A DNA stretch of 35,656 bases from an uncultured Rikenellaceae bacterium (GTDB lineage: Bacteria; Bacteroidota; Bacteroidia; Bacteroidales; Rikenellaceae). Location: the NCBI GenBank assembly GCA_947040435.1, contig CAMRBL010000013.1, positions 1 to 35,656 on the forward strand, read 5' to 3'. This document shows positions 1,284-24,378 of this stretch, piece after piece; the first letter of the stretch is position 1; every line of letters starts with the position of its first letter. A program made the translations under genes and the position numbers. The notes under the pieces are model-generated. The model was not told the DNA's origin. It was given only the letters and a program-made list of their open reading frames with translations, and made no database searches.

Positions 1284-3542
1284 ATGTACAAGACATTAAT
1301 CATGTATTCTCTTATTTTATCAGTAGTCCTCTTTGGTGGCTGTCGAAAAGATATCGACGCCCATTATGCAAGACCTACTTATTTATTAGGAAGTACGTAT
1401 GAATTTTTGGAGAAAAGAGGAGATTTCACTCTTTTTCTTGACGCCGTAGATCGTTCTGGATTTAAAACTGGACTTAATGGCAGTGGATTGTTTACTGTTT
1501 TCGCACCTTCGGATGTGGCAGTAAAGGCTTATTTGGCTGAAATAGGTAAAACTTCTTTAACAGAACTTACTCCTGAGGAGTTGGAACTGTTGGTCGGTTA
1601 TCATATTGTTGAGTTTTCTTATAGGCCAGAAGACTTCTTGGGATTTACTAAAACAGCTTCGTCTTTAGAGCCTGAGATTGCTGATGGATACGCACATCGT
1701 TTCAAAACACTCGCTCGTGAAGAAGTTCGAGAGCGTAAAAACCCTGCGTTAGGTAATCTTGTCGATGTATTTCAGCAAGAGAAGTTTCTCCCAATAATCT
1801 CAACAACGCTATTGAAACATAAGCGTAGTCCCGATTATGAGGCTGATTATAAATTTTTCTTTCCAGATGTAAATTGGAAGGGAGACAAAGATCAGTTTTA
1901 TGTAGCAGGAGCTGCTGTTTTAGAGAGTGGTATTCCTGTTGATAACGGATATGTGTATATTGTAGATAAAGTTGTAGCACCATTGAAAACGGTGTATGAC
2001 GCTTTTGACGATAAGCCAGATTATAGCCTATTTAGAGAGCTATATGATCGTTTTGCTTCTTTTGAATATGATCAAGAGGCAACATCTAGTTATGCCGCTT
2101 TAGGAGATAGTTTATTCGTAATGAGACATTACCTAGGACCAGCAGCAACAAGCGCAGACTTGCCAGATATCTCAGACGAATGGACAGTAAGTCCAGGTCA
2201 GTCTGATTTTGAGGCTAGAATGAGGAGAACATTCAATTCATATGTTCCTAATAACGCATCACTAGAGGCTTTCTGTAATGAGTATTTTGCAGATGAAAAA
2301 GATCCTAAAAAAATTCCTTTACTACCATTATTTTATCTTTTGTCATCTCATATACCATATGGACAAGAGATTATAATGCCTTCAGATTTTTCTAAGGGAG
2401 TTGAAGGATTATTTGGCGAGAAATGGATTTTAGGTCAAGGTGATTTGTTTGATCAAGAATTTTGTAGTAATGGTTTATTTTACGGAATCAAAAAGGTTCT
2501 AGAGCCAGCTATTTTTTCTATGATAACAGAGCCATTGTTTAAGTATGAACGCTTCTCTTTACTAGCATCATTATTCCACAAAACTCAGAATATTTTACCT
2601 TTAGTTGATGTAGATAGGAATTATTCTTTACTATTACTATCTAACACTAATCTGAAAAATACTTATGGTTATATGTTGGATTATAATGGAAATCCAGCTG
2701 ACTTAGATATCTTAGGAAGCAGAATTAAAGTTTTCCGTTATGCTGATTACAAAGATAATGATAAGGAAATTGTTGAGATCAATTTTCCTGCTCAGTTAAA
2801 TGTAGTTCAATCTCAGGTTGTTGATGGATTAATCGAGTATGAAACAGGTGAACGTAAGTTTTTCGCAACAAGTCAACCATTTACTTATCTGTATCAAAAT
2901 GATGGAGGTCTGTTTTATGAAGATACTGCACGAGTTAACATAGTAGAAAATGGTCGTTTCCCAATTTATGAGTATGAGAATGGTACTGGAAAAGGTCTTG
3001 TAATTGAAGTTGAGAATTTACTAGAGCGTAACACAGTAAATATTGCCAACCAATTGAGAAAAACAAATCCTAAATTTTACAAGGAGCTGCTTAGGGCTAA
3101 CTTAATTAAACTTGAAAATTTGGATGAAAATGGTGGAATTATTGAAGGTAGTGATTCTTGGAAGAATACAAAGTTTATTACGGATCATTGGTTGAATGGA
3201 GAGCGTTGTATGGTATTTGCACCTACAGATGCCGCATTTGACGAGAGTGTTATACCAACAGATTCAGCAGCTTTGCATAAGTATTTGAAATCTCACTTTA
3301 TTTCAGTTGATCAGAATGGAGCAGATCAGTATACGCTACCTAATTTGGGCCCGGAGAGAGAATATGATACCAAGGCAAATATTACCTTGGCAAAATTTGA
3401 AACTCTGACACTTACTTATAAAGATAGTAAAACTCTAACAGTAACTGATACGAAAGCTGTAGCAACATCTACAGATGGTAAGATTCCATTTTTTGCATCA
3501 GATGGAGTTATATTCGGAATCATTGATATGAAAAAGCCTTAA
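1284..3542 (+). CDS. Multi-domain fasciclin (FAS1) surface lipoprotein, 752 aa
   Basis: Lipobox VLFGGC followed by RKDIDAHY. FAS1-like blocks SGLFTVFAPSDVAVKAYL...LLVGYHIVEFSY and ERCMVFAPTDAAFDESVIP...LHKYLKSHF; a probable third repeat in between. Confidence 0.85.
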   Translation: MYKTLIMYSLILSVVLFGGCRKDIDAHYARPTYLLGSTYEFLEKRGDFTLFLDAVDRSGFKTGLNGSGLFTVFAPSDVAVKAYLAEIGKTSLTELTPEELELLVGYHIVEFSYRPEDFLGFTKTASSLEPEIADGYAHRFKTLAREEVRERKNPALGNLVDVFQQEKFLPIISTTLLKHKRSPDYEADYKFFFPDVNWKGDKDQFYVAGAAVLESGIPVDNGYVYIVDKVVAPLKTVYDAFDDKPDYSLFRELYDRFASFEYDQEATSSYAALGDSLFVMRHYLGPAATSADLPDISDEWTVSPGQSDFEARMRRTFNSYVPNNASLEAFCNEYFADEKDPKKIPLLPLFYLLSSHIPYGQEIIMPSDFSKGVEGLFGEKWILGQGDLFDQEFCSNGLFYGIKKVLEPAIFSMITEPLFKYERFSLLASLFHKTQNILPLVDVDRNYSLLLLSNTNLKNTYGYMLDYNGNPADLDILGSRIKVFRYADYKDNDKEIVEINFPAQLNVVQSQVVDGLIEYETGERKFFATSQPFTYLYQNDGGLFYEDTARVNIVENGRFPIYEYENGTGKGLVIEVENLLERNTVNIANQLRKTNPKFYKELLRANLIKLENLDENGGIIEGSDSWKNTKFITDHWLNGERCMVFAPTDAAFDESVIPTDSAALHKYLKSHFISVDQNGADQYTLPNLGPEREYDTKANITLAKFETLTLTYKDSKTLTVTDTKAVATSTDGKIPFFASDGVIFGIIDMKKP

Positions 3543-3562
3543 ACATTAACAATAGAATAATT

Positions 3563-6500
3563 ATGAAAATAATAAAAATACTATTACTGTTATCTTGCTT
3601 ACTACCAGTTGCTTTATTCGGTCAAGCAAAAAAAGCAGTCTCAGGTGTTGTAAGCGATGAATCTGGGACATTGCCAGGTGCGAGTGTTTACTTACAGTCT
3701 GTATCAGATAAGCGAGCATGGGACGGTGTTGCAACAAATATAAATGGAGGTTATGTTCTACAATTTGTAGATAATAAAGAATATGAGATTGTTTTTTCAT
3801 TTATTGGGTACAGAACCCAAACAATTCCATATAAAGGACAAACGGTAATTAATGTAAAACTGGTTAGTGATAGTCAGATTGAAGATATCGTTATTAGAGG
3901 AGTTCAGCGAGATGGAATGGGAATGAATTCTAAATTGACCTCTTCAGCAGTAGAGAAGATTAGTTTAGATGGTCTTAAGGATATGGCTGTTACATCTGTC
4001 GAGGGAATGGTTCAAGGAAAGTTAGCCAACGTAGATATAGTTGCAGGCTCAGGAGCTCCAGGAAGTAAAATGTCAATACGTATTAGGGGAACATCATCTC
4101 TTACAGGAGATAATGATCCATTAATTGTAATTGACGGAGTACCACAGAGTGTCTCTATCGATGATGGATTTAACTTTGCAACAGCCAATGAGGATGATTT
4201 TGGAACACTTTTGAATATGTCTCCAACAGATATCGAATCTATCACAGTATTAAAGGATGCCGCTGCGACAGCTATGTGGGGAGAGCAGGCTGCTAATGGA
4301 GTTTTGGTTGTTACAAGAAAAAAAGGAGCAAAAGGTGCCCCTAGTTTTCAAATTAAGCAAGTTGTAAAGACTTCAATTGAGCCAAAGAGAGTTCCAATGC
4401 TTAATGGACAGGAGTACAAGACTCTTATGCAGGATGCTATTTGGAATAATGTTAGAGATAACGAGTTTACTTCTTTAGGATTATTGAGTGAATATAAAGA
4501 CATTCTTTATGATCCAGCATATATTTATTTCGATGAATTTAATCAAGATACAGATTGGTTAGACCTGGTAAGACGTGTACCAATCAGTTCTGAAACTAAC
4601 TTTAATATGAGTGGTGGTGGAGATAAGGTAACTTATCGTTTTTCTGCTAGTTACTTGAGTGAAATAGGAACTACAATAGGAGAAGATTATTCTCGTGTTA
4701 ATGCGTATATGAATTTAGGTTATCGTTTTTCTGATAAATTCAATATTTCATCATCATTTAGTTATACAGATGGAGATAGAAATGGCTCAGTTGAAAGTCC
4801 AAGAAATTTGGCTTTAAGTAAGATGCCTAATATGACACCATACATATTAGATGAAAATGGAAATATGACGGATGAGTATTTTGTTCAGCCATCTTCTACA
4901 ATCCAAGGTAATTTCGCTTATACTAGACAACATCCAGTTGCAATGGCAGAGCTGTCATCTTCTAGATTTGCTGAGAAGACGTCTGCTATGGATTTCAATT
5001 TATCTTATCGTCCTTTACCAGGAATGAATATTAATGGTACAGCTTCGTTAAAGTTACAAAATTCGGTTAGGCAGGGGTATTTACCCGCAGCTGCTACTGG
5101 AGCTCAATGGTCTGATGGTAAATACAACCAAAGTCAAGAGCACCAAGGTTATTCAATGGGGTTGTATACGTCGTTGAATGCTAGTTACTATAAGAAAATA
5201 TCAAGACACTCTTTCACTGCTGCAGTAAAAGGAGAAATGAATCAAAGTTCTAATGCATCTCAGTGGGTTGTAACAAGTGGAAATAATGGACTTGAACTAA
5301 GTGACCCTACTGTCGGAGGTATCATCAGAGATATTGGTGGTAGTCTTGGAGAGTGGAGAAGTGTTGGTCTTGTTGGATCTTTTAACTTGAATCTTTATGA
5401 TGAAAAGTATAACCTCGAGTTAACTGCACGTACAGGTGGAAGTTCTAGTTCAGGTCGAAATGCACGTTGGGGAATAAATCCAGTAGTTGGATTTAACTAT
5501 AACATGCAGAATGAGAATTTCTTGAAGGATGTTGAGTGGTTAGATGAGGTTATTTTGCGTGGTAGTTGGGGTTATACACCTAAAGGAGCTTCAGGAAACA
5601 ATACTTATGGTGGAATTTATTCTGCTTTATCTGAGCAATATGTAGATATGGGAGCGCTAATTCCTTCATCTATGCAGTTAAATAGTATTGATTTTGAGCG
5701 AATTTATCAAACAAATTTTGGGTTATCTGTAGCTGTTCTAGATTATAGATATAGATTTTCTGCAAATTATTACATCAAGACAACAAAAAATCTACTACAG
5801 AGGGATATGTCTATCCCAAGTTCTACAGGATTTAGTACTGTTGCATGGTTTAATGATGGTAGTGTTCAAAATAAAGGATGGGAAACAGCAATCACTGGTA
5901 GCAATATTCTAGGATCAAAAGGTAATGGATGGAATCTAGGATTCAATGTCAATGTATCTAGTAATAAGAATGTTGTATTGGATTTACCTACTAGTTTAGA
6001 GTATCAAGAAGCAAGGATTGCTAATGGATCATATGCAAATAAGATTGTTGAAGGAAGACCTTTAGGAGCATTTTACGGATTTGATTATATAGGCGTATAT
6101 CAAAATTTAGATGAAACAGTTGCAACTGACATCAACGGTAATGTAATTAAAGATGTTAATGGAGATAATGTTATAACAACTATCAATGGTGAGAAGCAGC
6201 GTCCAGGAGATGCACAATATCGTGACTTAAATTATGATGGAGTTATAGACCAATATGACATTATTTATTTGGGTAATTCTATGCCAATTCTAACTGGAGG
6301 AGCTTCACTTTCAATTTCATGGAAGAATCTATCATTTACTACAGCACTACATTTCCGTATAGGTCAAAGTGTTATAAACCAAGCACGTTTTAATACTGAG
6401 GGTATGAGTGGTCAAAAAAATCAATCTACAGCTGTCTTGAGTCGTTGGAGATATGAAGGTGATCCTACTGATATGCCAAGAGCAATGTGGGGAAATAACT

Positions 6501-6778
6501 ATAACTCATTGGGTTCTAATAGGTTTGTAGAAGAAGCATCATTTGTAAAGGTTAAAGATCTTACTTTGGCATATAGACTTCCTACTGAATTTTGCAATAA
6601 ACTTGCAATGAAGGATATTAGACTTGTTTTAACTTGTTACAATCCATTTACTATTACTAACTACACTGGTCAGGATCCTGAGGTTCCTCTTCCAGGTGGA
6701 TTTAATAATTTAGCAATGGACAATAGTTTGACACCTAGTGCAAGAACATTTGCAGGTTCAATAACAATAAGTTTCTAA
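3563..6778 (+). CDS. SusC/RagA-family TonB-linked outer membrane protein
   Basis: Signal peptide, carboxypeptidase-regulatory-like N-domain (VSGVVSDESGTLPGASVYL), plug motif MSIRIRGTSSLTGDNDPLIVIDGVPQ, C-terminal beta-barrel ending ITISF. Adjacent to a SusD. Confidence 0.95.
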   Translation: MKIIKILLLLSCLLPVALFGQAKKAVSGVVSDESGTLPGASVYLQSVSDKRAWDGVATNINGGYVLQFVDNKEYEIVFSFIGYRTQTIPYKGQTVINVKLVSDSQIEDIVIRGVQRDGMGMNSKLTSSAVEKISLDGLKDMAVTSVEGMVQGKLANVDIVAGSGAPGSKMSIRIRGTSSLTGDNDPLIVIDGVPQSVSIDDGFNFATANEDDFGTLLNMSPTDIESITVLKDAAATAMWGEQAANGVLVVTRKKGAKGAPSFQIKQVVKTSIEPKRVPMLNGQEYKTLMQDAIWNNVRDNEFTSLGLLSEYKDILYDPAYIYFDEFNQDTDWLDLVRRVPISSETNFNMSGGGDKVTYRFSASYLSEIGTTIGEDYSRVNAYMNLGYRFSDKFNISSSFSYTDGDRNGSVESPRNLALSKMPNMTPYILDENGNMTDEYFVQPSSTIQGNFAYTRQHPVAMAELSSSRFAEKTSAMDFNLSYRPLPGMNINGTASLKLQNSVRQGYLPAAATGAQWSDGKYNQSQEHQGYSMGLYTSLNASYYKKISRHSFTAAVKGEMNQSSNASQWVVTSGNNGLELSDPTVGGIIRDIGGSLGEWRSVGLVGSFNLNLYDEKYNLELTARTGGSSSSGRNARWGINPVVGFNYNMQNENFLKDVEWLDEVILRGSWGYTPKGASGNNTYGGIYSALSEQYVDMGALIPSSMQLNSIDFERIYQTNFGLSVAVLDYRYRFSANYYIKTTKNLLQRDMSIPSSTGFSTVAWFNDGSVQNKGWETAITGSNILGSKGNGWNLGFNVNVSSNKNVVLDLPTSLEYQEARIANGSYANKIVEGRPLGAFYGFDYIGVYQNLDETVATDINGNVIKDVNGDNVITTINGEKQRPGDAQYRDLNYDGVIDQYDIIYLGNSMPILTGGASLSISWKNLSFTTALHFRIGQSVINQARFNTEGMSGQKNQSTAVLSRWRYEGDPTDMPRAMWGNNYNSLGSNRFVEEASFVKVKDLTLAYRLPTEFCNKLAMKDIRLVLTCYNPFTITNYTGQDPEVPLPGGFNNLAMDNSLTPSARTFAGSITISF

Positions 6779-6802: not shown

Positions 6803-8377
6803 ATGAAATTAATGTTAAAAATAAGATTAATACCTTTACTTTTGTATTCAATGCTTCTCGTTAGTTGTAACGACTGGCTTGATGTTGAGCCGGTAGGGGT
6901 GCAAACTAACAAAACGTTTTGGCAAACAAAGGAAGAGGTTGAAGGTGTTTTAGCATCTTCTTATATTCAATTGCGTAAGTCAATGAATACGATGTTATTT
7001 TGGGGAGAACTTCGAGGAAATGGATTAAAGTTTGGTCCAAATTTTAAAGGCGTTGGGAGTGAGGAGTATCAATCTGATATGCGAGAGTTAAATATTCTTC
7101 CAACGAATGATATAACTCAATATAAAGAGTTGTATAAAGGAATTTCTTATGCAAATCACGTTATTAAGTTAGGTCCTGGTGCGAGGGATTATGATGTTAC
7201 ATTAACAAAGTCTTTATTGAATTCGTATCTTGCAGAGGCAGTTTTTTTAAGGTCATTGTACTATTTCTATTTGGTTCGTACATTTAGAGATGTTCCTTAT
7301 ATTACTGATGCATATGATACTGATGAAGCTGAATTTAGAGTTGATAAAACTTCTGGAAAGAAGATCTTAGAGAGCGTATTGGCTGATTTAAAGAAGTATG
7401 CTACAAAATGTAAACCTGGTTATGAAGCTGTATGGCAAACTAAGGGTCGAGCAACGAGCTGGGCATGTTATGCTTTAATTGCAGATATATCTTTATGGCT
7501 TGGTGACTACGCAGGTGCTATAGAGTATTGTGATAAATTCCCAAGCGGCACATTTAGTTTAGGTGAGATGGAAGATTGGATGGATGTTTATTATCCTGGC
7601 AACTCATCTGAAAGTATTTTCGAATTGCAGTATAAGCATGGAGATGATGGATTGCAACAAAATAATCTATTCAGCACTTTTGAGTCTGGTGGTGGTAACT
7701 TAATCGTAAGTGATTATCTTAATGATCTATTTTTGTCAATTGATCCATCTGATATTGATGTAAGAGGATACAATTTAGGATATTTGAATTTAACTAAATG
7801 TGTTTGGAAATACATAGGTACTGAGACAGATGTTACAGCTAATCAGAGGAGTGTTAGACCACAAAGTGAAAGATCGCCTAACTTTATCTTCTATCGTTAT
7901 GCAGATATTGCTTTCATTAAAGCAGAAGCTTTGATTATGCAGTCGATAGATAATATGGGACAAGCATATTCAATATTGGATGAAACAGTAAGAAAACGTG
8001 CTGGCTATAGGAAACCACTACCAGTTGTTGTATATGAACCTGAAAAAGGAGATACAGATCAAGAGATTGCAGCAGCAAGAGCTAAAATTCAAGGAGATGC
8101 TTTAAAATTAATTGTAGATGAGCGTTTAAAAGAGTTTTATGCAGAGGGCAAATCTTGGTATGATATTTTGAGAATCTCACGTGTTAAAAGTGTTGGTATC
8201 CAATATTTAAAAGATTGTTTATTACCTCATGTACCTAGTAATAAGCGTCAAATCAAGAATAATGACTTGAATAATGTTGATTTTCACTACTTGCCAATAA
8301 ATGATGATGAGATTAGAGCTTCTGGAGGTATATTAAAGCAAAATCCATTCTACAAAAAATTTTCAGACAAAATCTAA
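6803..8377 (+). CDS. SusD/RagB-family nutrient-binding lipoprotein
   Basis: Lipobox LLVSC-NDWLDVEPVG, SusD-type AEAVFLRSLYYFYLVRTFRDVPYIT, and C-terminal LIVDERLKEFYAEGKSWYDILR. Confidence 0.95.
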   Translation: MKLMLKIRLIPLLLYSMLLVSCNDWLDVEPVGVQTNKTFWQTKEEVEGVLASSYIQLRKSMNTMLFWGELRGNGLKFGPNFKGVGSEEYQSDMRELNILPTNDITQYKELYKGISYANHVIKLGPGARDYDVTLTKSLLNSYLAEAVFLRSLYYFYLVRTFRDVPYITDAYDTDEAEFRVDKTSGKKILESVLADLKKYATKCKPGYEAVWQTKGRATSWACYALIADISLWLGDYAGAIEYCDKFPSGTFSLGEMEDWMDVYYPGNSSESIFELQYKHGDDGLQQNNLFSTFESGGGNLIVSDYLNDLFLSIDPSDIDVRGYNLGYLNLTKCVWKYIGTETDVTANQRSVRPQSERSPNFIFYRYADIAFIKAEALIMQSIDNMGQAYSILDETVRKRAGYRKPLPVVVYEPEKGDTDQEIAAARAKIQGDALKLIVDERLKEFYAEGKSWYDILRISRVKSVGIQYLKDCLLPHVPSNKRQIKNNDLNNVDFHYLPINDDEIRASGGILKQNPFYKKFSDKI

Positions 8378-8389: not shown

Positions 8390-9961
8390 ATGAAAAAAAT
8401 AATAAGTATATTTATATTGATGTTTTCAGTATCTTTGGGTTTTATATCATGTGAAGACCCCTTTGCTGGAGATGACTTTGCGGCGTATACAGAACAACCA
8501 ATAGGTATTTATTTAGATACAAAGCCCGAGTATTCTAGCTGGGTTAAGTTACTAAAGAGGGCTGACATGTATAATGCGGTAAATGTTAATGATGATTTTA
8601 CGTGTTTTGTTGCAAACAATGATGCTGTAGCGCGTTATCTTAAAGAGATTAAATTTAGTAGTATTGGTGATCTGAGTGAAGAACAGGCTAAAAATGTGGT
8701 TGCATATCATATTATACCTTTCACAGTTCTTAATCAAGAGGCTTTAGGAGGTCAAATTAATGATAAGACAGCTTCAGGTAGCTACCTTATAGTAGAAGCA
8801 GATGCAACTGACCCGACTGCGCCAAAGTATTTAAATAATGTTAAGATTATCAACTATAATCAGACTGTTATTAATGGAATTATACATGAGCTTGAAGATG
8901 TACTTCAACCGCCTTTGTATAGTGTAGGAGAGTTGATCGCTGCATCAGATCGTTTTACAATCTTTAATGAGGCAGTTAAGCTAGCTGGTTTAGATACATA
9001 CTTAAACCTTAGAGAGATTGTAGTTGGATATGGTAAAGTTATCGATTTTAAGACAGTATTAGCTGTATCAGATTCTGTTTTTAGAGTGAATGGCATCGAA
9101 AATATTGCTGATCTTAGAGAGAAGTATGTTGGAGATCCAGATGATGTTCTCAATCAGTTTTATAATTTTGTTGCATATCATATTCTTCCTAAATCATATG
9201 ATTATTCTTCATTAATTACAAAGTTGAATGAGACAGATAAAGGGAGAAATTTCCTAACATATGCTAAAAATCAATTTATTACTATAACAGATGATGGAGG
9301 TTTATATAGTACTATAAATTCACATGATCCAATCGGTAAAGAGGTTTCATTCATTCAAGAGCGTCTTAATAGTGTTGCGATTAATGGATATATACACGAG
9401 GTTGATAAGTTGATGGATATTGTAGCACCAAAAACCTACCCTTTTGAGTATGATCTTGCTACTGGTAAGGAGTTCGAAGTATTGGATTTTTATAGAGGTC
9501 CAAATACAAAGAAGATGGAGGTTTTTGAAAATGATGACTCTTTGGAGTTCATTAAAATGGTCACAATTCCTGCAGGCAAAGGTATCCTTAGGTATGTTAA
9601 TAATGGAAACGTTGTGAATATGCCTATGCATAACAATGACTGGTTGATCGTTGAGTTGGGAGATATGGGTTCTATAGAGTTCACAATTCCACCTGTTATT
9701 CCAGGAAATTATAACCTTGTATTGTATAAGTGGCAGTATGGCCCTGGTGTCGATCACTCAGCTGATAAAAGAAAACCAGGTACTACATTAGTATTAAATA
9801 ACAATATTAGAGTAGGTGAAGTACACTACGGTAGTGGAGTCTTTAGACATGTTGTAGGAAAGACGCAGATTGTTGAGATGAAAGAGAATAAATTGTTATT
9901 TAAACTAACAAAGCCAGGACCTATCGGATTTGATATTATTAGATTTGAACCAATTGAATAA
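8390..9961 (+). CDS. FAS1-domain lipoprotein with C-terminal beta-rich domain (DUF5108-like)
   Basis: Lipobox FISC-EDPFAGDD, two FAS1-like blocks (FTCFVANNDAVARYL...VVAYHIIPF; FVAYHILPK...INGYIHEVDKLMDI), and a C-terminal domain with the same layout as the next gene. Confidence 0.8.
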   Translation: MKKIISIFILMFSVSLGFISCEDPFAGDDFAAYTEQPIGIYLDTKPEYSSWVKLLKRADMYNAVNVNDDFTCFVANNDAVARYLKEIKFSSIGDLSEEQAKNVVAYHIIPFTVLNQEALGGQINDKTASGSYLIVEADATDPTAPKYLNNVKIINYNQTVINGIIHELEDVLQPPLYSVGELIAASDRFTIFNEAVKLAGLDTYLNLREIVVGYGKVIDFKTVLAVSDSVFRVNGIENIADLREKYVGDPDDVLNQFYNFVAYHILPKSYDYSSLITKLNETDKGRNFLTYAKNQFITITDDGGLYSTINSHDPIGKEVSFIQERLNSVAINGYIHEVDKLMDIVAPKTYPFEYDLATGKEFEVLDFYRGPNTKKMEVFENDDSLEFIKMVTIPAGKGILRYVNNGNVVNMPMHNNDWLIVELGDMGSIEFTIPPVIPGNYNLVLYKWQYGPGVDHSADKRKPGTTLVLNNNIRVGEVHYGSGVFRHVVGKTQIVEMKENKLLFKLTKPGPIGFDIIRFEPIE

Positions 9962-14500: not shown

Positions 14501-14704
14501 TTGAGTTATGATATCTTTAATAACTGGTTAGGTTTTTCACATATAAGTTGTTATGTAACTGCTGAGAATCTATTTGTTTGGAGTGATTATAAAGGTATGG
14601 ATCCAGAGTTTAGTTACTCATATGATAGAGCTTTGCAAGGAATTGATTATGGTAAGATTGCAAATCCTCGTAGTGTGAAACTTGGTATTAATTTGAATTT
14701 TTAA
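11543..14704 (+). CDS. SusC/RagA-family TonB-linked outer membrane protein (second copy)
   Basis: The track ORF begins at 11522 inside the upstream gene; the likely start is 11543, 11552 or 11555 (MMRIVKIRLVMFFCLALGL). VKGTVFSDETQKPLANVMI domain, plug GSYLNLRGTRSLVANNTPLIVIDGIPYDP, C-terminal barrel. Confidence 0.93.
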   Translation: MINMMRIVKIRLVMFFCLALGLTTQGQNKSNTEKQVTYYKVKGTVFSDETQKPLANVMISSVGALNGAITDSLGGFIIEVPNRRSTLSVASSGYHPQKVQVLKRETLNVYLVPTSRRFSARGYESVLGYRAFDDYVGTAEVLSGDDISDVYSDLDNALVGKFAGLQVTGKGGMPGEGSYLNLRGTRSLVANNTPLIVIDGIPYDPSYAVSSSITGYSKSIFSIVSSKEVQNVTLLKGAEAAIYGSLGSNGVLLIETEKASDLETKIEFQATAGVAMIDTRLPLLEETDYKSYIGDIGANKYPDLDVLVDKLPFLLDDPSDPRGKIYNNNTDWQDEIYDLAFQSDYQLKVKGGDAVAKYVLTLGTQQNNGVIKGTNLSKYYTRMNADINFSKSLKLNASGALNFTQMTLQEQGMATYTNPFLTSLYEAPVLSVNQQVFMNKEVVELAAFTPVNSELMMSNPAAIVNDVKGYSSAYDALINVGLDFTPIENLKIQGVFGLTYSHNKEDLFIPGKTSRAIAPLMDTLAENTVRGGVTTLMNYYARAQATYSKTYNTIHHLNMNAGYQLMTTQKETDNASGINTPTDFYTTLSNTLSSHSRNITGIMEKSAWMNGYASVDYLYNNQLFANVGVTADASSAYGPSGSNLYFFPSVSAGWKAKNTFLRNVDLVNTLTFRGEFSEQGNSQYGSHYGRYYYVTDPYKDVVGTYRDMVANSYLKPERVRTLGGGVDVSLLGHVVALSADYFQEYTTDMIIAKSTSAVLGVPSIYDNAGELKTNGVELNLQLNVIQKGAVKWSLGGNIAHYKSKIVDLGGTSEIITKYDDGTQLITRVGESPYQFYGAQVEKVFNTTKEANDAHYVSQNGEQFVAGDIKFRDVNGDQIINDKDRVIIGDPTPDFYGGFYTNLKWKNFGLYAYFSYSYGQEVYNGVRRTTEAMTNFDNQSTAVERRWMTEGQNTDMPRASYGDKTGNSRFSDRWIEDGSYIKMKELTLSYDIFNNWLGFSHISCYVTAENLFVWSDYKGMDPEFSYSYDRALQGIDYGKIANPRSVKLGINLNF

Positions 14705-14714: not shown

Positions 14715-16490
14715 ATGATAAAGAATAAATTATTTTTATTTCTTCTTTTGTGTTCTTTTAGTTTCTCTTCATGCGAAGATTTTTTTAGCATTCAGAAAGA
14801 GGACTTACTAACAAATGAAGATAATTACAAAGAGCGTAATCAAATCTATTCAGGTATGGTTGGTTTGGCAGCAAACTTCCGAGGAGTAGTAGATGATTAT
14901 ATTATCTTGAGTGAGTTACGTGGCGATTTACTTCAGCCAACATCAACAGCTCCAGATGAGTATTGGGATATATTTAGATACAAGACAGATCAAAATAATA
15001 GTGCTGCATCGCCAGCTCCATTATATCTATTGATTGCAAATTGTAATGATTTCTTACGTAATATACGTGCCTATAACAGTGCTTATCCAGGAGGAATAGA
15101 AGAGGTTATCTATAGAGGTATGGTCTCTTCGACACTTTCGTATAGTGCTTGGGCATATCTAAATATTGGTAAATTATATGGTGAGGCATACTACCATGAT
15201 TTACCTGTTTCGGATATGAATCAAGATATGAGTAGTGGTAAATTACTAAATTTAAAATCTTTAGTGAGTCAATTGATCTCTTCTATGCAAATGGGTGTTG
15301 AAGGTATTAATGCATTTCATTATTTAGATTGGAAACTTATTGTAATGGACCCAAGTAGCATTGATGCATATAATAAATTTGATGAGACATGGTCTAGGAT
15401 TGTTATCAATCCTGACATATTGTTGACGGAGTTATATTTATGGGATGGAAACCACATTGAGGCAGCAAAGCAAGGAATTGCGGCGATGAAAGGCCAAGGT
15501 TTGTACACAGCAGGAACAAACACCAAGTTATTCAACCTAACTTCGTATACAGATGGTCATTGGGCTGAACTTTTTGATCGTGAATTATCAACAGGTCATT
15601 TAAATGAAGCTATGACTGCAATTCAGTATGACTACTCAAAGAGACAAACAAACGATTTGCAGTATTATTTTTCAAATTATGCTCCAAATATCTATCGTTT
15701 TAAGCCGACAGATATTGCATATGAGTCTTTATTTAGGATTCCTACAAAAATGCACTACTTTGAAGAAGGTGAGTTAGGTCCAGGCCGACCAGCTGATTCT
15801 ATGTTAGGTTATACCTATGATTCTAGACGAGAATCTTCGGCTATATCTATTGAGAATGGAGAAGTTGTTGTGAATAAATATTCATTAGATAACTCTAACA
15901 AGCCAAGTTTAAAAAAGAAATCATATGAACATGATGCTACTATTTATGTTTATAGAGCATCTGAACTATGCTTGATGGTAGCTGAGGCATTGAATGGAAT
16001 TGGATCACCGGAGGGTAATAGAGCCGCAGACTCATTAGTAAGTGTTGGTTTTGCTGCTTCTTGGAATGGTACTTCTAAGGTTTTCAATGCGCCATTTGAT
16101 GCACCGATATATTCATCAACTCACTTAAGTGGATCGAAAGGTATTCTCGGAAGATTAGGTTATAGAGGTAATTATACTCGTTACTATATCTCTGGAGGAA
16201 AAGAATTATCTGCTGCAGATTCACTAGTTCGTAAACAATTTGTAATGGATAGTATCATTGCACAAGAGACTGCACGTGAGTTGGCATATGAAGGAAAGAG
16301 ATGGTTTACATTAGTTCGTATGGCACTTAATAGCAATATGCCAGAGAAGGTTTCAGAGATTATACCAAATAAGTTTCCGGCAGCTTCAAGAGACCAATAT
16401 AGAGTTTGGTTGAGAGAGCCAAGCAATTGGTTTATGAAGTGGAATCACTATCCAGAAGGAGTCACTCCTGAAGAAAAGAAGAAGAAATAA
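14715..16490 (+). CDS. SusD/RagB-like lipoprotein (second copy)
   Basis: Lipobox FSSC-EDFFSIQKEDLL, internal ASELCLMVAEALNGIG, C-terminal QETARELAYEGKRWFTLVRMAL; directly after a SusC. Confidence 0.9.
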   Translation: MIKNKLFLFLLLCSFSFSSCEDFFSIQKEDLLTNEDNYKERNQIYSGMVGLAANFRGVVDDYIILSELRGDLLQPTSTAPDEYWDIFRYKTDQNNSAASPAPLYLLIANCNDFLRNIRAYNSAYPGGIEEVIYRGMVSSTLSYSAWAYLNIGKLYGEAYYHDLPVSDMNQDMSSGKLLNLKSLVSQLISSMQMGVEGINAFHYLDWKLIVMDPSSIDAYNKFDETWSRIVINPDILLTELYLWDGNHIEAAKQGIAAMKGQGLYTAGTNTKLFNLTSYTDGHWAELFDRELSTGHLNEAMTAIQYDYSKRQTNDLQYYFSNYAPNIYRFKPTDIAYESLFRIPTKMHYFEEGELGPGRPADSMLGYTYDSRRESSAISIENGEVVVNKYSLDNSNKPSLKKKSYEHDATIYVYRASELCLMVAEALNGIGSPEGNRAADSLVSVGFAASWNGTSKVFNAPFDAPIYSSTHLSGSKGILGRLGYRGNYTRYYISGGKELSAADSLVRKQFVMDSIIAQETARELAYEGKRWFTLVRMALNSNMPEKVSEIIPNKFPAASRDQYRVWLREPSNWFMKWNHYPEGVTPEEKKKK

Positions 16491-16506: not shown

Positions 16507-18456
16507 ATGAATAAGATATTAAAATTAATCGGAACTATTTTACTGGTAAGTGGACTTTATAACTGTTCTGATGTTGAGTTAGATAAAAATGAGAGTCTGC
16601 TACCTACTGATCCCGAGGCAGAAAATGATGACAGAGTAGACAATGATATGTGGGCTTGGGTTGGAACTTTTCCAGGAGATGTTGCACCACTTAGAAAACG
16701 TCTAGATGATGTAAGTGTTGTTGTTAAGGGTTATGCAGAACAGCCAATTTTCAACGTAGGTAGTGAGCCAAAATATTGGCAAAGTACTGGATTGTATGTT
16801 GTTCCAGTTGAGCCAGTTGAGATTATTGTTCCTGATGTACAAGAAGGTACTCTACACTACCAGATTGGGGTTGCAGATATCGAGTTAACTGGTATTGAAA
16901 CTGGAATAAAACGTTTCGGTAATGTCACACAAAAAGGTAAGTTAACTAAAGGTTCAAATATCCTTAAACATAACTTTGGTGGTCATCTATATATCTATTA
17001 TGTAGGAGTTCCTAGCAAAACAGATGTAACATTAACTGTTAGTGGAGCTGTTAAGAGTATTGATTATATTATAGATGAAACTAACTTGGAAGAGTGGACA
17101 GTCGCAGTTAAGGATACAGTAAATCCTATGATCTGGGGCGAGTTAATCGGCAAGAATATTGCTATTACACTACCAATTGAAGAGTTAAGAAAGATTCCTA
17201 ATCCAGGAACAGTATTGCTTAATTCAGATAAGCTTGTTGGTGATTTAAGCAAATTATGGAGAGGTAATTTTACTCCAATAGATGGTGTTCAATTGTGGCG
17301 TATTTATGCAGACATGCAGTTACCTTCTAAGGTATCCACTTTTAGTGGCTACCCAGTTGGATTGGATGTTGAGAAAGAGAATATTATTAAAGCTTTAGCT
17401 GGAGTTGGAGTTGAAAGTGACCGTAAGCATATTTACAATGCTATTGGAAAGAATTATTTGACTCCATGGTATAAAAGTAATTTGCTTTCACCAGTTATTC
17501 CACTCTTGAGTACATTCTATATTTATAATCAGAATTCAGTATGGCCAAGTGATTTTGATGTTGCAACCTTAACTAATAATCCAAATATTGGTATCAATGG
17601 ATATATTAACTTGGAAGAGGGAGTTAAATTACGAATGCTTATTCAATTAGCTCAAGAGTACGGTTGGGGTCTATTTACTTATGTTAATAATGCTCTTATA
17701 AGTGAATTTGCCACTACAGTAAAAGTAGGTGTAAAACCAATTCCAGATCAGATAAAGAATGATTGTTTTGCAATCGCAGTATCTGAATATGCTAGTACGG
17801 ACCTTGCAGAGTTTTTTGACTCATGGAATTTTACAGTAACAAATTTCTCTAGAGACTATATGGAAAAATATTCAGCTCCTACTTCTAAATTTTGGACTGA
17901 GTTTACTCTAGGTGTCCCAGTAGTTGATAAAGGTTTAGTTGCAAAGAAATTTGTTAGACCTAATCCATCATTAGTAAGAGATTCAGTTTATTCTCCAAAG
18001 GAGTGGATTTGTGATGGAAGTTCTTTTAACGCAGGTACAAAATATGAGAATTTATTAGATGGCAATGTAGCGTCAGTCTGGCATAATGATTGGCAGGGAG
18101 GAACTGGAAACTTCTTTCCACATGATGTTTTCTTTAATTTTAATGCGGAAAAAACTCATGAATTAGAGTTCAATTATATCACAATAAATCAAAAGAATGG
18201 TCAGAATAGAGATGAAGTTGAAACTAAAGAGTTTCAAGTAGCTATTTGGAAAGAAGGTGATTGGGAGTTAGTTGATAATGGTCGAGTAATGTTCGCATCT
18301 AAAAATGATGGTGTTCAGCAATTTTATCTTAAGGATATTTATAAGACAACGGCCGTTAAGTTTATTATGCTTAATACACATAAAACTGCAGATGGAACTC
18401 GTGGTGAGGAAAATGATTGTAATCTTGCTGAATTTAGAATTGGATTAATAAAATAA
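16507..18456 (+). CDS. M60-like (enhancin-type) domain lipoprotein with degenerate active site and C-terminal F5/8 type C-like domain
   Basis: M60-type N-region (YWQSTGLYVVPVEPVEIIVPDVQEGTLHYQIGVADIEL, GGHLYIYYVG). Expected HEIGHNYQ-W region reads NAIGKNYLTPWYKSNLLSPV (17437-17493). No HExxH elsewhere. C-terminal LLDGNVASVWHNDW discoidin signature. Confidence 0.75.
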   Translation: MNKILKLIGTILLVSGLYNCSDVELDKNESLLPTDPEAENDDRVDNDMWAWVGTFPGDVAPLRKRLDDVSVVVKGYAEQPIFNVGSEPKYWQSTGLYVVPVEPVEIIVPDVQEGTLHYQIGVADIELTGIETGIKRFGNVTQKGKLTKGSNILKHNFGGHLYIYYVGVPSKTDVTLTVSGAVKSIDYIIDETNLEEWTVAVKDTVNPMIWGELIGKNIAITLPIEELRKIPNPGTVLLNSDKLVGDLSKLWRGNFTPIDGVQLWRIYADMQLPSKVSTFSGYPVGLDVEKENIIKALAGVGVESDRKHIYNAIGKNYLTPWYKSNLLSPVIPLLSTFYIYNQNSVWPSDFDVATLTNNPNIGINGYINLEEGVKLRMLIQLAQEYGWGLFTYVNNALISEFATTVKVGVKPIPDQIKNDCFAIAVSEYASTDLAEFFDSWNFTVTNFSRDYMEKYSAPTSKFWTEFTLGVPVVDKGLVAKKFVRPNPSLVRDSVYSPKEWICDGSSFNAGTKYENLLDGNVASVWHNDWQGGTGNFFPHDVFFNFNAEKTHELEFNYITINQKNGQNRDEVETKEFQVAIWKEGDWELVDNGRVMFASKNDGVQQFYLKDIYKTTAVKFIMLNTHKTADGTRGEENDCNLAEFRIGLIK

Positions 18457-18460: not shown

Positions 18461-20056
18461 ATGAAAAAAATAATATTGCTATTTACTTTATTATCTGTTT
18501 TTTTAGTTTGGAATTGCAGTGATAAAATTGAGGCAGCAGATGAATGGTCTTCATCTGCGAGAACTTGGGAAGACAAGTTAGGAGACTACAGAGGTACGCT
18601 TGATATCTTGGTAGACGGTTTAGCTATGGATACAGTTGTTCAACAGGTTTCTTTTGTTGGCGATAATTACAATAGAGTAAGTATGTCTATAGAAGACCTC
18701 TTTATACAGGACAAGCGTTATGGTACTGTATACTTCACAGAGTTGTCTTTTAAAGAGGAGAATGGAGTTATTAATATCAAAGGAACTCAGAATTCACCAA
18801 CATCAACATCTTTTGGTTTGGTAACTTTTGATATCGTAGGTAAGGTTAAAAACAATGTTCTTTCGTTTGACTTAACTATTAATGGAGTTGATATCAAAGA
18901 GCTTCAGTTGAATATGCGTAATGCTCGAATGATTGATAAGTTTCCAAACAGCGCTACATATATTGAGAAGGCTTTTGTAGTAGAAGAGGATCTTAATCGT
19001 CCATTTATTACGGGAACTCCAGCAATTTCTTCCCACCAGGTAACTATCTTTGTAGCAGATTCATTAACTATTACAGATAGTACATTCTTTTGTGTACGAC
19101 CAAAATTTGAGTTATCCCCAGGGGCGTGGATTGAACCAGATCCAACTATGAACTGGACTGTAACACATAATACTAATCCAGATATTAAAGATGCTCCTAG
19201 TATAGCTACAACAGACAGTTTATATCGTTTCACAGAGAAACTTGATATGTTTGGTAATAGGACTATGTATTTTGAATTGAAAGTTTGGGCTGAGGATTCA
19301 ATCAATTTCCGTGAGTACCGTGTCACATATGCAAAATCTAATGCGATAAAGATCTCTCTTTTCCATTGGGAAACTCGTGACGGGTACCGTGAACCTATCG
19401 CTGGATGGGCAACAAATAACGGATATTTTAAGACTTTGTCAAAAGATGTACCACTGTTTGCAAATAGATATGCTACTCGTGTATTAGGCGGTACTATCGG
19501 AGAGATTGGTGCAACAGTTAGAACAGGAGTTACAGGAACAGTTAAGGATTCTAACGTTGTAGTAGTATCAGGAAAGTTGTTTAGAGGAGTCTTTAATTTA
19601 GATTCCCTTAACACGCCAAAGAATGGAGAGCTACATGGCGTTCCATTTAGTAAGCGTAAGCCGGTATCACTAAGAGGCCAATTCAAGTATATCCCAGGAT
19701 CTGTATTGTATCTTGGCGATTCAATCTTACCCGATTCAATCAAAGGACATACAGATAGTTGTTATATCGAAGCTTTTCTTTATGAGTCACCTACTGCAGA
19801 TTCGTATCTAGATAGTTTAGATTTAGATGATCGTAAAATAGTTGGACATGCAAAGTTTGTATCTGGTAAGTCATATGAATTTAGAGATTTCTCAATGAAC
19901 TTTACAGTTAGAAATTGGGTTCCAAATAGAAGGTATCATTTAGGTATTGTATGTAGATCTAGTGGTAAGGACGAATATAGAGTTGGAGCACAGGGTAGTG
20001 AATTGACAGTTTCAGGATTTGAGATCATGTCGACACAAGTATTAAATGAATATTAA
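18461..20056 (+). CDS. Lipoprotein with calycin-like N-terminal domain and PCMD-like (putative carbohydrate metabolism domain) C-terminal domain
   Basis: Lipobox VWNC-SDKIEA. YRGTLDILVDG...FVGDNYNRVSMSIEDL calycin-like. WETRDGYREPIAGWATNNGYFKTLS...PFSKRKPVSLRGQFKYIPG resembles PCMD. Confidence 0.7.
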   Translation: MKKIILLFTLLSVFLVWNCSDKIEAADEWSSSARTWEDKLGDYRGTLDILVDGLAMDTVVQQVSFVGDNYNRVSMSIEDLFIQDKRYGTVYFTELSFKEENGVINIKGTQNSPTSTSFGLVTFDIVGKVKNNVLSFDLTINGVDIKELQLNMRNARMIDKFPNSATYIEKAFVVEEDLNRPFITGTPAISSHQVTIFVADSLTITDSTFFCVRPKFELSPGAWIEPDPTMNWTVTHNTNPDIKDAPSIATTDSLYRFTEKLDMFGNRTMYFELKVWAEDSINFREYRVTYAKSNAIKISLFHWETRDGYREPIAGWATNNGYFKTLSKDVPLFANRYATRVLGGTIGEIGATVRTGVTGTVKDSNVVVVSGKLFRGVFNLDSLNTPKNGELHGVPFSKRKPVSLRGQFKYIPGSVLYLGDSILPDSIKGHTDSCYIEAFLYESPTADSYLDSLDLDDRKIVGHAKFVSGKSYEFRDFSMNFTVRNWVPNRRYHLGIVCRSSGKDEYRVGAQGSELTVSGFEIMSTQVLNEY

Positions 20057-20065
20057 AAAATATAC

Positions 20066-22405
20066 GTGATGAATATTATATTAAGACTGATAGTTTTTGT
20101 TAGTGTTCTTTCGGTTTTCTTCATCTCTTGTAGTGAAGAAAACCCGGAAGGGCCTGTAAATACAGATGTAACTAAGATGGTATCTTTTGCACAGGATACA
20201 TTCTTTATAGAGGAGGACGCAATTGATACTACAATTACTATCGTTGTACCTAAGTATGTAAATGGAAAGGTTTATATCACTTTAGGATCTACAGATGGTA
20301 GTGCAGTTAAAGGTTCTAATTTTGTTCTTAGAGAATTAGAGGCAATAATTCCAGTTGGAAAGGCAAGTGTTGAAATTCCAATTGAGACAATTAATGATAC
20401 TCTGATGAATCTAAATCGTGATTTCAAACTAGAGATATTAAGTGTCAAAGGCTTTGCTTTTGCAGGTACTACTCGTCAAAAGTGTGTTGTTGTTATTAAA
20501 AATGATGATCATCCTAAAGAGGCAACTGCAACATTCATAAAATCTGAGATTGAGGTTTATGAGAATGAAAAAGTGTTAGAGATTCCATTTAACATTATCA
20601 AGGGCAAGTCAATCGTCAAGTTAAAGGGAGATGCAATTGTAACTTTTGCAGCAGCACTAGGTATGGGAAATGCTACTAGTGATCACTTTAGGTTCAGAGA
20701 TGGTGGAAAAGTTTTCATGAAAGAAGGAGATTCAACTGGCGTTGTTATTATTGACCTAATAAACAATGATAAAGCTAAGCCAGATTTTGTATGGGCATCA
20801 ATTCGTATTTCAGAAACAGAAGGTGTATTTCCTGGTGATGATCATTGTAAATTGATAATAAACAATGATGACATTGATAGGCAAATGGCTTTTTCTGAGA
20901 TTAAAACTAGTGTAGCAGAAGATGCTGGTGAGGTTGAGATTTCTGTTGTTATATCAGGAAAGCCTAAATTTGAAAAGCCAATTATCAAGGGTCAACTAGC
21001 ATTTAGAAATCCAGGTAGCCGTTTGAAGTTTATTGGAGATTCTATTTTTAGTGTTAGAGGAGATACAACACTAACATTTAAAGTTGCAATTGAAGACAAT
21101 AAAGAGTATGGAGTTTGGGGAGATACAATCGACTTTATAGGAGTTGAGAATGTGACTACTCCCAAAGCAACTAAAACTATGATCATTGATATTGTTGACA
21201 ATGAGCGCAAGATTAAATTTGAATCAGTTAAGATTAGTGCAAATGAAGGAGATCAGGAGCAAAAGAGTTTGATGATTCCAATTTTGTTGGAAGGTGGAGT
21301 TGCTTTGTATGATACAGATGTTAAAGTCTCTATCGGCAACAGCAATACTCTAGAGGGTCAGTATGATATTGTTAGTGGAACAGATCTAACAATTCTTAAG
21401 GGTCGTGATAGAGTTGAAGTTGAGGTTAAATTCCGTCACCTTGTAGATGCTGCGGACAGATTTTTCGAGTTGAATATATCTAGTACTCAGGAGCATACTT
21501 CTGTTGTAAGTGGAGAAGGTAGTATGTGTACATTACATATTCTGAATATAGACCCTAACGTTGCATTTTCAACATCAGCTGACGTTATGAAATTCAACAA
21601 TACTTTAGACACTATCTATATACATGGTAATAATCTAATTGAAGCTTCTAATGTTGAATTATCTGTAGTTGCTACAGAGGGAGTTACTTATGTTGGACAA
21701 AAAGTAATTCCATTGGCTAAAGGTAGTAGTATACATAAGATACCTGTTAAGGTTGATTTTGATCCCAATGTTAAGGTTGGACAGTTACAATTTGAAATTT
21801 CTAGAGTTACAAGTGACGACATAGAGGTTGAAGGTGTAATTAATTCTAGTTTCTCTAAGAGAACATTATTTGCTCTAAATCAAGATAAAGCTGTATCAAC
21901 TTATGTTACTAAGCCAATGAATGCAGACAATACTGGAACTGATCCTAATACTAATTGGAGAGTTGTATATTATTCAACTCAAGAGACAAACGAAGGTACA
22001 TGTAAAGATATTATTGATAACAATAATGATACACATTGGAGTACAAACTGGGCTGGCGGTGGAACGTTAATTGATGGAGTAACTCCAGATAAAGCTTTCC
22101 CAGAAGGACCTTATACTATTATATATGATATGAATAGAGTAATTCTTTCAGATAGTGTTGAGATGGGTGCTCGTCTAAGTAATTTAGGTGATTCACATGG
22201 ATTGGATGTCTATATTGGTGATTCAGAAGCTGTCGATGATCCATCATGGAAATTGATATGTAGCATCGATAATAAAACGACTAATGTAAAAAGTGTGAAA
22301 AAAGCTTCAACCAAAGTTGTCGGAAGGTATGTTAAGCTAGTTATTCCTGAAGGAGCAAGAAATAATATTGCATGTTTGGGTGAATTTAGGCTTTTTGGGT
22401 ATTAA
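20066..22405 (+). CDS. Calx-beta-repeat lipoprotein with C-terminal F5/8 type C-like domain
   Basis: Lipobox FISC-SEEN. Repeated Calx-beta-like blocks (VSFAQDTFFIEEDAIDTTITIVV...SAVKGSNFVL...INDTLMNLNRDFKLEI). C-terminal DIIDNNNDTHWSTNW discoidin signature. Confidence 0.75.
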   Translation: MMNIILRLIVFVSVLSVFFISCSEENPEGPVNTDVTKMVSFAQDTFFIEEDAIDTTITIVVPKYVNGKVYITLGSTDGSAVKGSNFVLRELEAIIPVGKASVEIPIETINDTLMNLNRDFKLEILSVKGFAFAGTTRQKCVVVIKNDDHPKEATATFIKSEIEVYENEKVLEIPFNIIKGKSIVKLKGDAIVTFAAALGMGNATSDHFRFRDGGKVFMKEGDSTGVVIIDLINNDKAKPDFVWASIRISETEGVFPGDDHCKLIINNDDIDRQMAFSEIKTSVAEDAGEVEISVVISGKPKFEKPIIKGQLAFRNPGSRLKFIGDSIFSVRGDTTLTFKVAIEDNKEYGVWGDTIDFIGVENVTTPKATKTMIIDIVDNERKIKFESVKISANEGDQEQKSLMIPILLEGGVALYDTDVKVSIGNSNTLEGQYDIVSGTDLTILKGRDRVEVEVKFRHLVDAADRFFELNISSTQEHTSVVSGEGSMCTLHILNIDPNVAFSTSADVMKFNNTLDTIYIHGNNLIEASNVELSVVATEGVTYVGQKVIPLAKGSSIHKIPVKVDFDPNVKVGQLQFEISRVTSDDIEVEGVINSSFSKRTLFALNQDKAVSTYVTKPMNADNTGTDPNTNWRVVYYSTQETNEGTCKDIIDNNNDTHWSTNWAGGGTLIDGVTPDKAFPEGPYTIIYDMNRVILSDSVEMGARLSNLGDSHGLDVYIGDSEAVDDPSWKLICSIDNKTTNVKSVKKASTKVVGRYVKLVIPEGARNNIACLGEFRLFGY

Positions 22406-22425
22406 TAAATAATAAGTAGATTGAA

Positions 22426-24378
22426 ATGAAAATATTTTTAAATACTAAAGTATGTATGAAGAGTTTTAGTTGGCTTTTTGTATTGTGTATAGTTCTGAGT
22501 GGTTGTAATGACAAGACTACGGGACTAGGAAATAATTCACTATCGTTTGATGTTGATAGTATGGTTGTTTTAGACGATGTACGTGTAGAATTTTTACAAA
22601 TAGAACTTACAGAGCCTTTGACAGAAGCATGTAATATTTATATAACAAGTAGTATTGAGGAGTCTAAACGTTTCTCTTTTCCTGAGTATATCAGACTTGG
22701 AGAGGGAGCGATTAGAGGAAAATATCCAATATACGTAACTGAGAATAAATTTTCATCACTAGATGTAACTACTATTTTTACCTTTGATAAGGTAGCAGGA
22801 CCGGCAGAAATTGATGCAACAAAGAAATCAATTAAGTTTACCATTAAAGGTAAAGCAAATGCTGGAGCAGTTGTTATTGGTTTTGAGGATAATTTTTATT
22901 CTGTAGGAGAAGATGAAGAATATTTTGAGTTACCGTTTAAGATCCAAGGAGTATTAGAAGATTCTGTTAAATTAAAAGTGAAAGCTCTAAATGGAACAGC
23001 AGTTGTCGGTACAGATTTTTGGTTTGGAGCGGGTAACAAGAATTCTAATTCGGAAGGATATGTTCAGCTAACTAAAGGAGAGGAGTGGAATTTCATTCCT
23101 ATCTCAATTATTGATGATGGTACATCAGCTCTAGATAGAACTTTTACTATTACTTTAGAGAGTCTTCATCCAGTAGATAAATTAGTTAATATTGCACCTA
23201 CACAGAATGAATGTGTTGTTACTATCCGTAATATTGAGAGACGCCTAAGAGTTACAGACTCACTTGTAGAGGTTGGAGAATACATTGGTAAAATTAATTA
23301 TAATTTTAATTTAACTGCGACAGTTCCAGCAACCGTAACTGCTGATATAGTTGTTGATGAAAAATCAACTGCAATTGAAGGAAAGCATTTTAGATTCATA
23401 CTAGAAGATGGTCAAACCAAGCCTACTATTGAAATTGCGCCAGGCGAGACAAGTTCTGGTATCAAGATTGAGATTCTTGATGAGTCATTAGGTAATGAAG
23501 ACAGAAAGCTTTTCTTAAAAATCATTAATGCAAAAGGAGTTGAAGTCTCTGCGAAATATGGTATTGGAGAGGTTATTATTCAGAATGATGATAACTCTGT
23601 AGGATTTGCCTCTTCGGAAGCGGTTATTATTTCTGGAGAAGTAATTAAGATACCTATTTCAGTTGTAGGTACTCTTGATGAAGAGTTACAGTTCGTATTT
23701 GAAGTTGTTGATGGCGAGGGAAATGCTACATCACCAAATGATTTCATTATTCTTTCACCTATTGAACCAAAAGTAATAGAGGGACAATCTACTGCTTATC
23801 TTTCAGTATCTACAACATTTACAAGTAAATCAAAGAATTTTTTACTTAAACTAGTTAAGATCAAGGGTACAGGAATCTCTATTAACTCGGTTATTGATCA
23901 AAATCGTCGTTACTGTAAAGTAAATATGTTGGGTAATATAGATAAAACACAATGGAAAATTATTGATTCAAGTGTATCTATGGATTCGGATCCAGTAGGG
24001 AAACTAATTGATGGAGATATTACTACTTTTTGGCATAGTAGATATACTGATGCAACATCTGCTGCACCATGGTTCTTTGTAATAGATATGACGGAGACAC
24101 TGCCTGTAAACAAGCTTTTATTAAATGCTCGTTCAAACCAACAGGATTCACGTCTAATTGTAGTTTATCTTTCAGATTTACCATTGGATAAGGATTCTCC
24201 TGATTGGGTGGAAATATTGAACTATAGATTTCCAACAGATCCATATGCACCTAATCAAACATTAACAATACCAGGAGGGCATACTGGGCGATACATGATG
24301 TTAAAAATATTAGAAGGTCGTTCAAGTGATCCAAAGGTTTCAGCATTCTGTGAGATTACAGTAAATCCAAAAGACTAA
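22426..24378 (+). CDS. Calx-beta-repeat lipoprotein with C-terminal F5/8 type C-like domain
   Basis: Likely start 22456 (MKSFSWLFVLCIVLSGC-NDK). Calx-beta-like blocks (AIEGKHFRFILEDGQTKPTIEIAPGETSSGIKIEILDES). C-terminal LIDGDITTFWHSRY discoidin signature. Confidence 0.75.
   Translation: MKIFLNTKVCMKSFSWLFVLCIVLSGCNDKTTGLGNNSLSFDVDSMVVLDDVRVEFLQIELTEPLTEACNIYITSSIEESKRFSFPEYIRLGEGAIRGKYPIYVTENKFSSLDVTTIFTFDKVAGPAEIDATKKSIKFTIKGKANAGAVVIGFEDNFYSVGEDEEYFELPFKIQGVLEDSVKLKVKALNGTAVVGTDFWFGAGNKNSNSEGYVQLTKGEEWNFIPISIIDDGTSALDRTFTITLESLHPVDKLVNIAPTQNECVVTIRNIERRLRVTDSLVEVGEYIGKINYNFNLTATVPATVTADIVVDEKSTAIEGKHFRFILEDGQTKPTIEIAPGETSSGIKIEILDESLGNEDRKLFLKIINAKGVEVSAKYGIGEVIIQNDDNSVGFASSEAVIISGEVIKIPISVVGTLDEELQFVFEVVDGEGNATSPNDFIILSPIEPKVIEGQSTAYLSVSTTFTSKSKNFLLKLVKIKGTGISINSVIDQNRRYCKVNMLGNIDKTQWKIIDSSVSMDSDPVGKLIDGDITTFWHSRYTDATSAAPWFFVIDMTETLPVNKLLLNARSNQQDSRLIVVYLSDLPLDKDSPDWVEILNYRFPTDPYAPNQTLTIPGGHTGRYMMLKILEGRSSDPKVSAFCEITVNPKD

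Follow-up and report, generated by a model that had tools for sequence, protein, structure and literature searches.

Polysaccharide utilization loci (PULs) of the canonical type combine a SusC/SusD pair with a surface endo-acting enzyme and a surface glycan-binding protein (SGBP) (PMC7618045). What, then, is the task of a locus that has two such pairs and no recognised enzyme? The locus in question occupies positions 1284-24378 of the window, by which we mean the whole 35,656-bp contig CAMRBL010000013.1 (C13) of an uncultured Rikenellaceae bacterium (assembly GCA_947040435.1; 2.2 Mb, 208 contigs, 84.6% complete). It consists of eleven co-directional + strand coding sequences (CDSs), g1 to g11, among which profile searches found no co-encoded surface endo-acting enzyme. 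A first-pass annotation of the DNA had read it as a binding-only surface system. "Binding-only" proved right as far as profiles can see; the locus is, however, a re-purposed known module and not a stand-alone system of a new kind. Genes g1 to g7 correspond to the conserved core of PULs for pectin of the rhamnogalacturonan I (RG-I) type, and only the tail that follows them is special. The genes and the terminator behind them are as follows (CBM, carbohydrate-binding module).

1284..3542, + strand: g1, long FAS1 lipoprotein of 752 aa, core gene 1 (Pfam Fasciclin 2.1e-19, 3 stretches; lipobox FGGC; same-genus orthologue 66%)
3563..6778, + strand: g2, SusC1 TonB-dependent transporter of 1071 aa (TIGR04056, 634.9 bits)
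6803..8377, + strand: g3, SusD1 lipoprotein (SusD_RagB 2.4e-18, SusD-like_3 9.7e-16)
8390..9961, + strand: g4, DUF5108-family lipoprotein that has two FAS1 domains and, at the C terminus, a jelly roll resembling CBM35/CBM6 (Fasciclin 7.4e-18; AlphaFold2 [AF2] model; Foldseek)
9970..11541, + strand: g5, FAS1 lipoprotein occupying the place of Bacteroides thetaiotaomicron BT4167, which is reported to bind RG-I at the surface (Fasciclin 4.3e-14; BT4167 matched by published gene order only)
11543..14704, + strand: g6, SusC2 TonB-dependent transporter of 1053 aa (TIGR04056, 613.5 bits; same-genus orthologue 88% identical)
14715..16490, + strand: g7, SusD2 lipoprotein (SusD_RagB 3.6e-11)
16507..18456, + strand: g8, pseudo-M60 lipoprotein with an M60-like N-terminal domain, an M60 fold lacking the zinc ligands and a CBM32/F5-8C-like C terminus (M60-like_N 2.1e-11, partial M60; CBM32 7blg 2.4e-6)
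18461..20056, + strand: g9, calycin-like and PCMD lipoprotein (PCMD 2.2e-27, Calycin_like 2.7e-08; sequence relatives 4het and 4jrl)
20066..22405, + strand: g10, Calx-beta lipoprotein with a weak F5-8C match (Calx-beta 7.2e-07; F5/8C 0.0013, below cut-off)
22426..24378, + strand: g11, Calx-beta and F5-8C (CBM32-like) lipoprotein (Calx-beta 5.1e-13; F5/8C 3e-05, below cut-off; CBM32-type PDB chains)
24441..24483, + strand: intrinsic terminator closing the operon (20-pair stem, 8 GC pairs)

Both SusC products exceeded the NCBIfam cut-off of 368 bits, and each gene adjoins a SusD-family gene (g2/g3 and g6/g7), the arrangement of a SusC/SusD uptake system. A lipobox cysteine was present in 9/9 of the remaining products, followed in most by acidic residues. 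No catalytic family was recognised by Pfam (g1 to g11) or NCBIfam (g1 to g10), and the HExxH motif is absent from all eleven products. Thus, the count of nine lipoproteins and two SusC proteins given by the first-pass annotation and its statement that no intact enzyme is recognisable were borne out. Its list of binding folds stood for FAS1, Calx-beta and PCMD/Calycin_like, which Pfam detected; the F5/8C-like matches of g8, g10 and g11 all remained under the Pfam cut-offs. Judged from sequence and models, the nine lipobox proteins, with a CBM35-like fold in g4 and CBM32-like regions in g8 and g11, are candidates for surface glycan binding. The AF2 model of g4 (mean predicted local distance difference test [pLDDT] score, 89) displayed FAS1 folds and, at its C terminus, a jelly roll, with TGFBIp/periostin as top Foldseek match (3.5e-17) and a C-terminal match to CBM35 (8.4e-05); such a predicted fold fits a surface glycan-binding protein.

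The eleven consecutive CDSs and the strong terminator after g11 were recovered as first described. The intergenic gaps from g1 to g11 measured 20, 24, 12, 8, 1, 10, 16, 4, 9 and 20 bp; for gap and length figures, the start of g6 was taken as ATG 11543 because this choice agrees with the length of its same-genus orthologue (1,053 aa). Internal terminators, which the first-pass annotation would have taken as a sign of separate transcription, were matched only inside CDSs (13 in positions 1-20000 versus 6.9 +/- 3.0 expected), and with all gaps at or below 24 bp there is no room for an intergenic one. From this spacing we infer that g1 to g11 are probably transcribed as a single unit.

The ordered cluster proved to be conserved in two different ways. 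All eleven genes recur in the same order in the same-genus genome (G263), at 46-88% identity; elsewhere the first seven recur and the tails vary. Six further Rikenellaceae contain the core, or part of it where the contig ends. Scanning genome contigs with a SusC2 alignment/profile yielded 80 named loci from Bacteroides, Prevotella, Paludibacter, Odoribacter, Echinicola, Parapedobacter, Sphingobacterium and other genera, the closest being L136 from an uncultured Rikenellaceae bacterium; the same type of scan with g8 as a single sequence gave no match. The order FAS1-SusC-SusD-FAS1-FAS1-SusC-SusD on one strand was found in 60 of the 67 loci that have at least 9 kb upstream of SusC2 and were therefore testable, with median gaps of 11-20 bp, a figure that describes the SusC2 family and not all SusC genes, because the loci were chosen by SusC2 similarity. 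Several of the remaining seven are explained by truncation at a contig end or by an antisense open reading frame (ORF) masking g4. A DUF5108 match was present in 41/49 members of the g4 family, and the core itself was without enzymes in every locus seen. These results show that g1 to g7 form an ancient module that spans the phylum; it comprises two distinct SusC/SusD transporters plus three FAS1 lipoproteins and is usually joined to pectin-degrading enzymes. Chance juxtaposition of the core genes was rejected, since at least 60 loci share the arrangement. A literature search for FAS1 proteins together with SusC in Bacteroides retrieved one loose match and no description. The window's genome also holds a second SusCD locus (G000 C4; L170 2411-11213), which encodes only one FAS1 lipoprotein, of 202 aa, together with a WbsX/GH99-like protein.

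In other genera, the genes 3′ of SusD2 are mostly pectin-related. The core is followed by a PL11 rhamnogalacturonan lyase and GH2 in Bacteroides nordii (L094), by PL11 in L115, by GH28 in L098 (B. xylanisolvens) and by a pectinesterase in L114; a tail family starting AFPGAEGFG looks PL1-like by eye and gave no Pfam lyase match. The same core order has been described in B. thetaiotaomicron, whose genes BT4145-83 respond to RG-I (PMC3243724). There, BT4164-69 are annotated as SusC, a DUF5108 protein, hypothetical proteins and a TonB receptor (PMC10434189), and SusCD pairs BT4164/65 and BT4168/69 flank the SGBP BT4167, the lyase BT4170 being described as well (PMC8002723). The window locus displays this order in full: SusC, SusD, two lipoproteins (in B. 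thetaiotaomicron, the DUF5108 protein and BT4167), SusC and SusD. Because gene order and the published annotation of BT4164-69 agree, we take the core as an RG-I-type outer-membrane core, matched in this way and not by sequence. What differs is the tail: in the B. thetaiotaomicron PUL (BT4145-BT4183) the core is accompanied by BT4170, a surface RG-I lyase, and by many pectin enzymes, whereas in the window it is followed by pseudo-M60, PCMD and Calx-beta proteins. Thus, the locus is an already catalogued PUL as far as its core is concerned, while its tail is not catalogued.

Two further tail families were observed. A family of 700-770 aa stands directly after or near the core in L098 (14948-17056) and in six more loci (B. 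xylanisolvens, Echinicola and others); the L098 member had neither a Pfam match nor a PDB sequence match, and the family is a candidate for a putative unrecognised pectin-related enzyme. A family of 760-1000 aa follows the core in L142 (14916-17195) and 16 more loci from Prevotella, other Bacteroidaceae, Coprobacter and unclassified Bacteroidales. Two scanned members had no Pfam match, and the L142 member had no PDB match.

The tail of the window opens with g8, for which Pfam detected M60-like_N and only the C-terminal part of Peptidase_M60. The first 24 Foldseek matches of its model were all M60; with a pLDDT of 50, however, the model is poor, and these matches only back up the Pfam call. Thus, g8 has the M60-like_N domain and, in a low-confidence model, the M60 fold; the motif HEXXHX(8,28)E is missing, its H, E, H and E being replaced by N, A, K and P, in agreement with the first-pass description of a degenerate M60. 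The zinc-site residues are also lost in L136, L085, L100 and L109, and HExxH is kept in L101, L105, L163 and L110. The Odoribacteraceae loci L101, L105 and L163 share with the window the core and an M60 gene at the equivalent position, but their HExxH is intact (HEIGHNFQ, HELGHNYQ). In the SusC2 tree, every M60-tailed locus falls into one clade (13 rows, SH-aLRT 100), within which the degenerate-M60 loci form a single Rikenellaceae-centred subclade (95-97) that includes the window. In the M60 protein tree, the degenerate proteins group together (95) beside the intact M60s of L101, L105 and L163 and apart from the three intact M60s encoded elsewhere in the window's genome. These patterns show that an M60 peptidase gene replaces the post-core enzymes in one Odoribacteraceae/Rikenellaceae lineage, and that in the subclade with the window the M60 protein lost all four zinc-site residues and stayed full length. 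The g8 frame is open over its whole length, and its ratio of nonsynonymous to synonymous substitution rates (dN/dS) against L136 is 0.31, a rough value because dS (~1.15) is near saturation. From the open frame, this ratio and the clade-shared loss, g8 looks like a maintained noncatalytic protein, and a decaying pseudogene was rejected. In 2012, HEXXH was missing in 7% of the 523 entries of PF13402, with vertebrate members cited (PMC3267712). In L100, the gene 3′ of the pseudo-M60 (18243-21020) encodes a 926-aa protein with macroglobulin MG2/MG4-like domains, which might act as a partner that traps proteases.

Family counts in seven Rikenellaceae genomes bear on the substrate; HExxH was read directly only in the three M60s encoded elsewhere in the window's genome. 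The window's genome and the same-genus genome contain, respectively, three and three full-length M60s, five and seven GH20s and one and two sialidases, with no GH28 and one weak GH88 match each. The pattern is reversed in two Rikenellaceae whose tail is of the pectin type and not of the M60 type: they have no M60, GH20 or sialidase, six GH28s each, and three and four GH88s; their tails carry DUF4957-like proteins and, in one, also GH2. As for RG-I enzymes, neither PL11 nor GH28 was found in the window's genome, an 84.6% complete metagenome-assembled genome in which PL9 was not searched. This gene content, a correlative indicator, favours a host-type O-glycoprotein as the likely substrate in the window's genus. 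In B. thetaiotaomicron, the M60 protein BT4244, a CBM32 SGBP and SusCD, all of PUL BT4240-50, cooperate in mucin glycopeptide import (PMC11992087). That PUL resembles the window in its SusC/SusD, its M60-fold lipoprotein with a CBM32-like domain and its CBM32-type binding protein, but it contains a single SusCD pair, lacks the FAS1 core, and its M60, the O-glycopeptidase BT4244, is active.

Our preferred reading, which we consider probable though far from certain, is that the locus is a capture-and-import operon in which a pectin-type module was re-purposed for the uptake of O-glycoproteins or glycopeptides and the M60 protein now serves as a binding protein. The dead copy of a mucin-type protease suggests that the operon captures and imports protein-linked sugars released by enzymes encoded elsewhere. 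The surface lipoproteins g1, g4, g5 and g8 to g11 would hold an O-glycosylated protein or its glycopeptides, with g8 as a protease-derived glycopeptide-binding protein. Surface enzymes from other loci (the three intact M60 peptidases, GH20s and the sialidase) would trim the glycoprotein, and the fragments would be imported by the two SusCD pairs, SusD acting as lid and SusC as barrel, as in the TonB-driven pedal-bin mechanism by which SusCD systems are known to work. The first-pass proposal that degradation is supplied elsewhere agrees with the presence of these enzymes in the genome. Several points weigh against this explanation. It is built from genes and predicted proteins, and the substrate was read from the gene content of an incomplete genome. 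Three other pseudo-M60 genomes (G249, G304 and G310) have mixed enzyme content and no full-length M60 elsewhere, so that a pseudo-M60 is not always accompanied by an intact one. In the M60 tree, L110's protein falls with the intact M60s found elsewhere in the window's genome, and M60 genes may therefore have been added to the core on more than one occasion. The poor structure model of g8 and the near-saturated dS behind its ratio also count here.

A more far-reaching version, possible but rather doubtful, is that the core forms one double utilisome, i.e., a single complex of two SusCD pairs and three FAS1 lipoproteins that was kept phylum-wide and re-targeted by swapping the post-core genes, the Rikenellaceae protease having become a noncatalytic glycoprotein receptor that feeds the complex. 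In the levan and dextran utilisomes, lipoproteins sit stably on SusCD (PMC7618045). These systems likewise combine SusCD transporters with co-encoded surface lipoproteins; they have an active enzyme and one SusCD type, whereas the window has two types and no recognised enzyme, and the complex proposed for it is putative.

Alternatively, the operon could still handle a plant pectic or arabinogalactan-protein glycan, with pseudo-M60 and Calx-beta proteins as extra binding modules for polysaccharide linked to plant glycoprotein. In most genera the core is linked with enzymes for RG-I/pectin, the C-terminal matches of g4 include CBM35 structures, one of them complexed with unsaturated galacturonic acid (2w47), and GH88 and GH28 occur in some pseudo-M60 relatives. 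However, the richness of the window and same-genus genomes in M60, GH20 and sialidase, the lack of GH28 and single weak GH88 match in each and the missing PL11 of the window's genome make this explanation unlikely. It is also conceivable that g9, g10 or g11 hides an unrecognised hydrolase and that the locus supplies its own surface enzyme, as an ordinary PUL does. Large tail proteins without a Pfam match in other core loci show that this position does harbour unknown enzymes, and the nearest solved PCMD chains bear the label of hypothetical or putative glycoside hydrolase in their PDB entries. For 4het and 4jrl, however, that label is a prediction, and given that the profile searches recognised no catalytic family we regard a hidden hydrolase as quite improbable.

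A further alternative is an adhesive surface layer of FAS1, F5/8C and Calx-beta proteins, with import secondary or lost; adhesion had been one option in the first-pass proposal. Eukaryotes use FAS1 and discoidin-type domains for adhesion, and g4 has its best fold matches in TGFBIp and periostin. Nevertheless, g4 carries a CBM-like domain, and both SusC/SusD pairs are intact and represent the most conserved genes (dN/dS, 0.07-0.17). Under such strong constraint on the transporters, a reading as adhesion only was rejected, and we give an adhesive layer hardly any credence.

If the capture-and-import reading is true, the binding and import part of a pectin PUL would be an independent module whose substrate class is changed by exchange of tail genes, and a mucin-type O-glycopeptidase would have become a noncatalytic receptor. 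The question is raised what has kept two different SusCD pairs linked to three FAS1 lipoproteins all the way from Sphingobacterium to Bacteroides.

The surroundings of the locus differ between the two genomes of the genus. In the same-genus genome (L016 4943-6211), chromate transporter genes adjoin the 3′ end of the cluster, while in the window (24698-35301) an 88% identical chromate transporter homologue lies about 10 kb away. The interval in the window contains a DcaP-type porin, tRNA-Val, coaE, folP, an ABC ATPase and other housekeeping genes. Upstream of g1, about 1.1 kb is without a long ORF and no regulator gene is visible, and a strong 20-pair hairpin terminator (129-173) lies close to the contig start.

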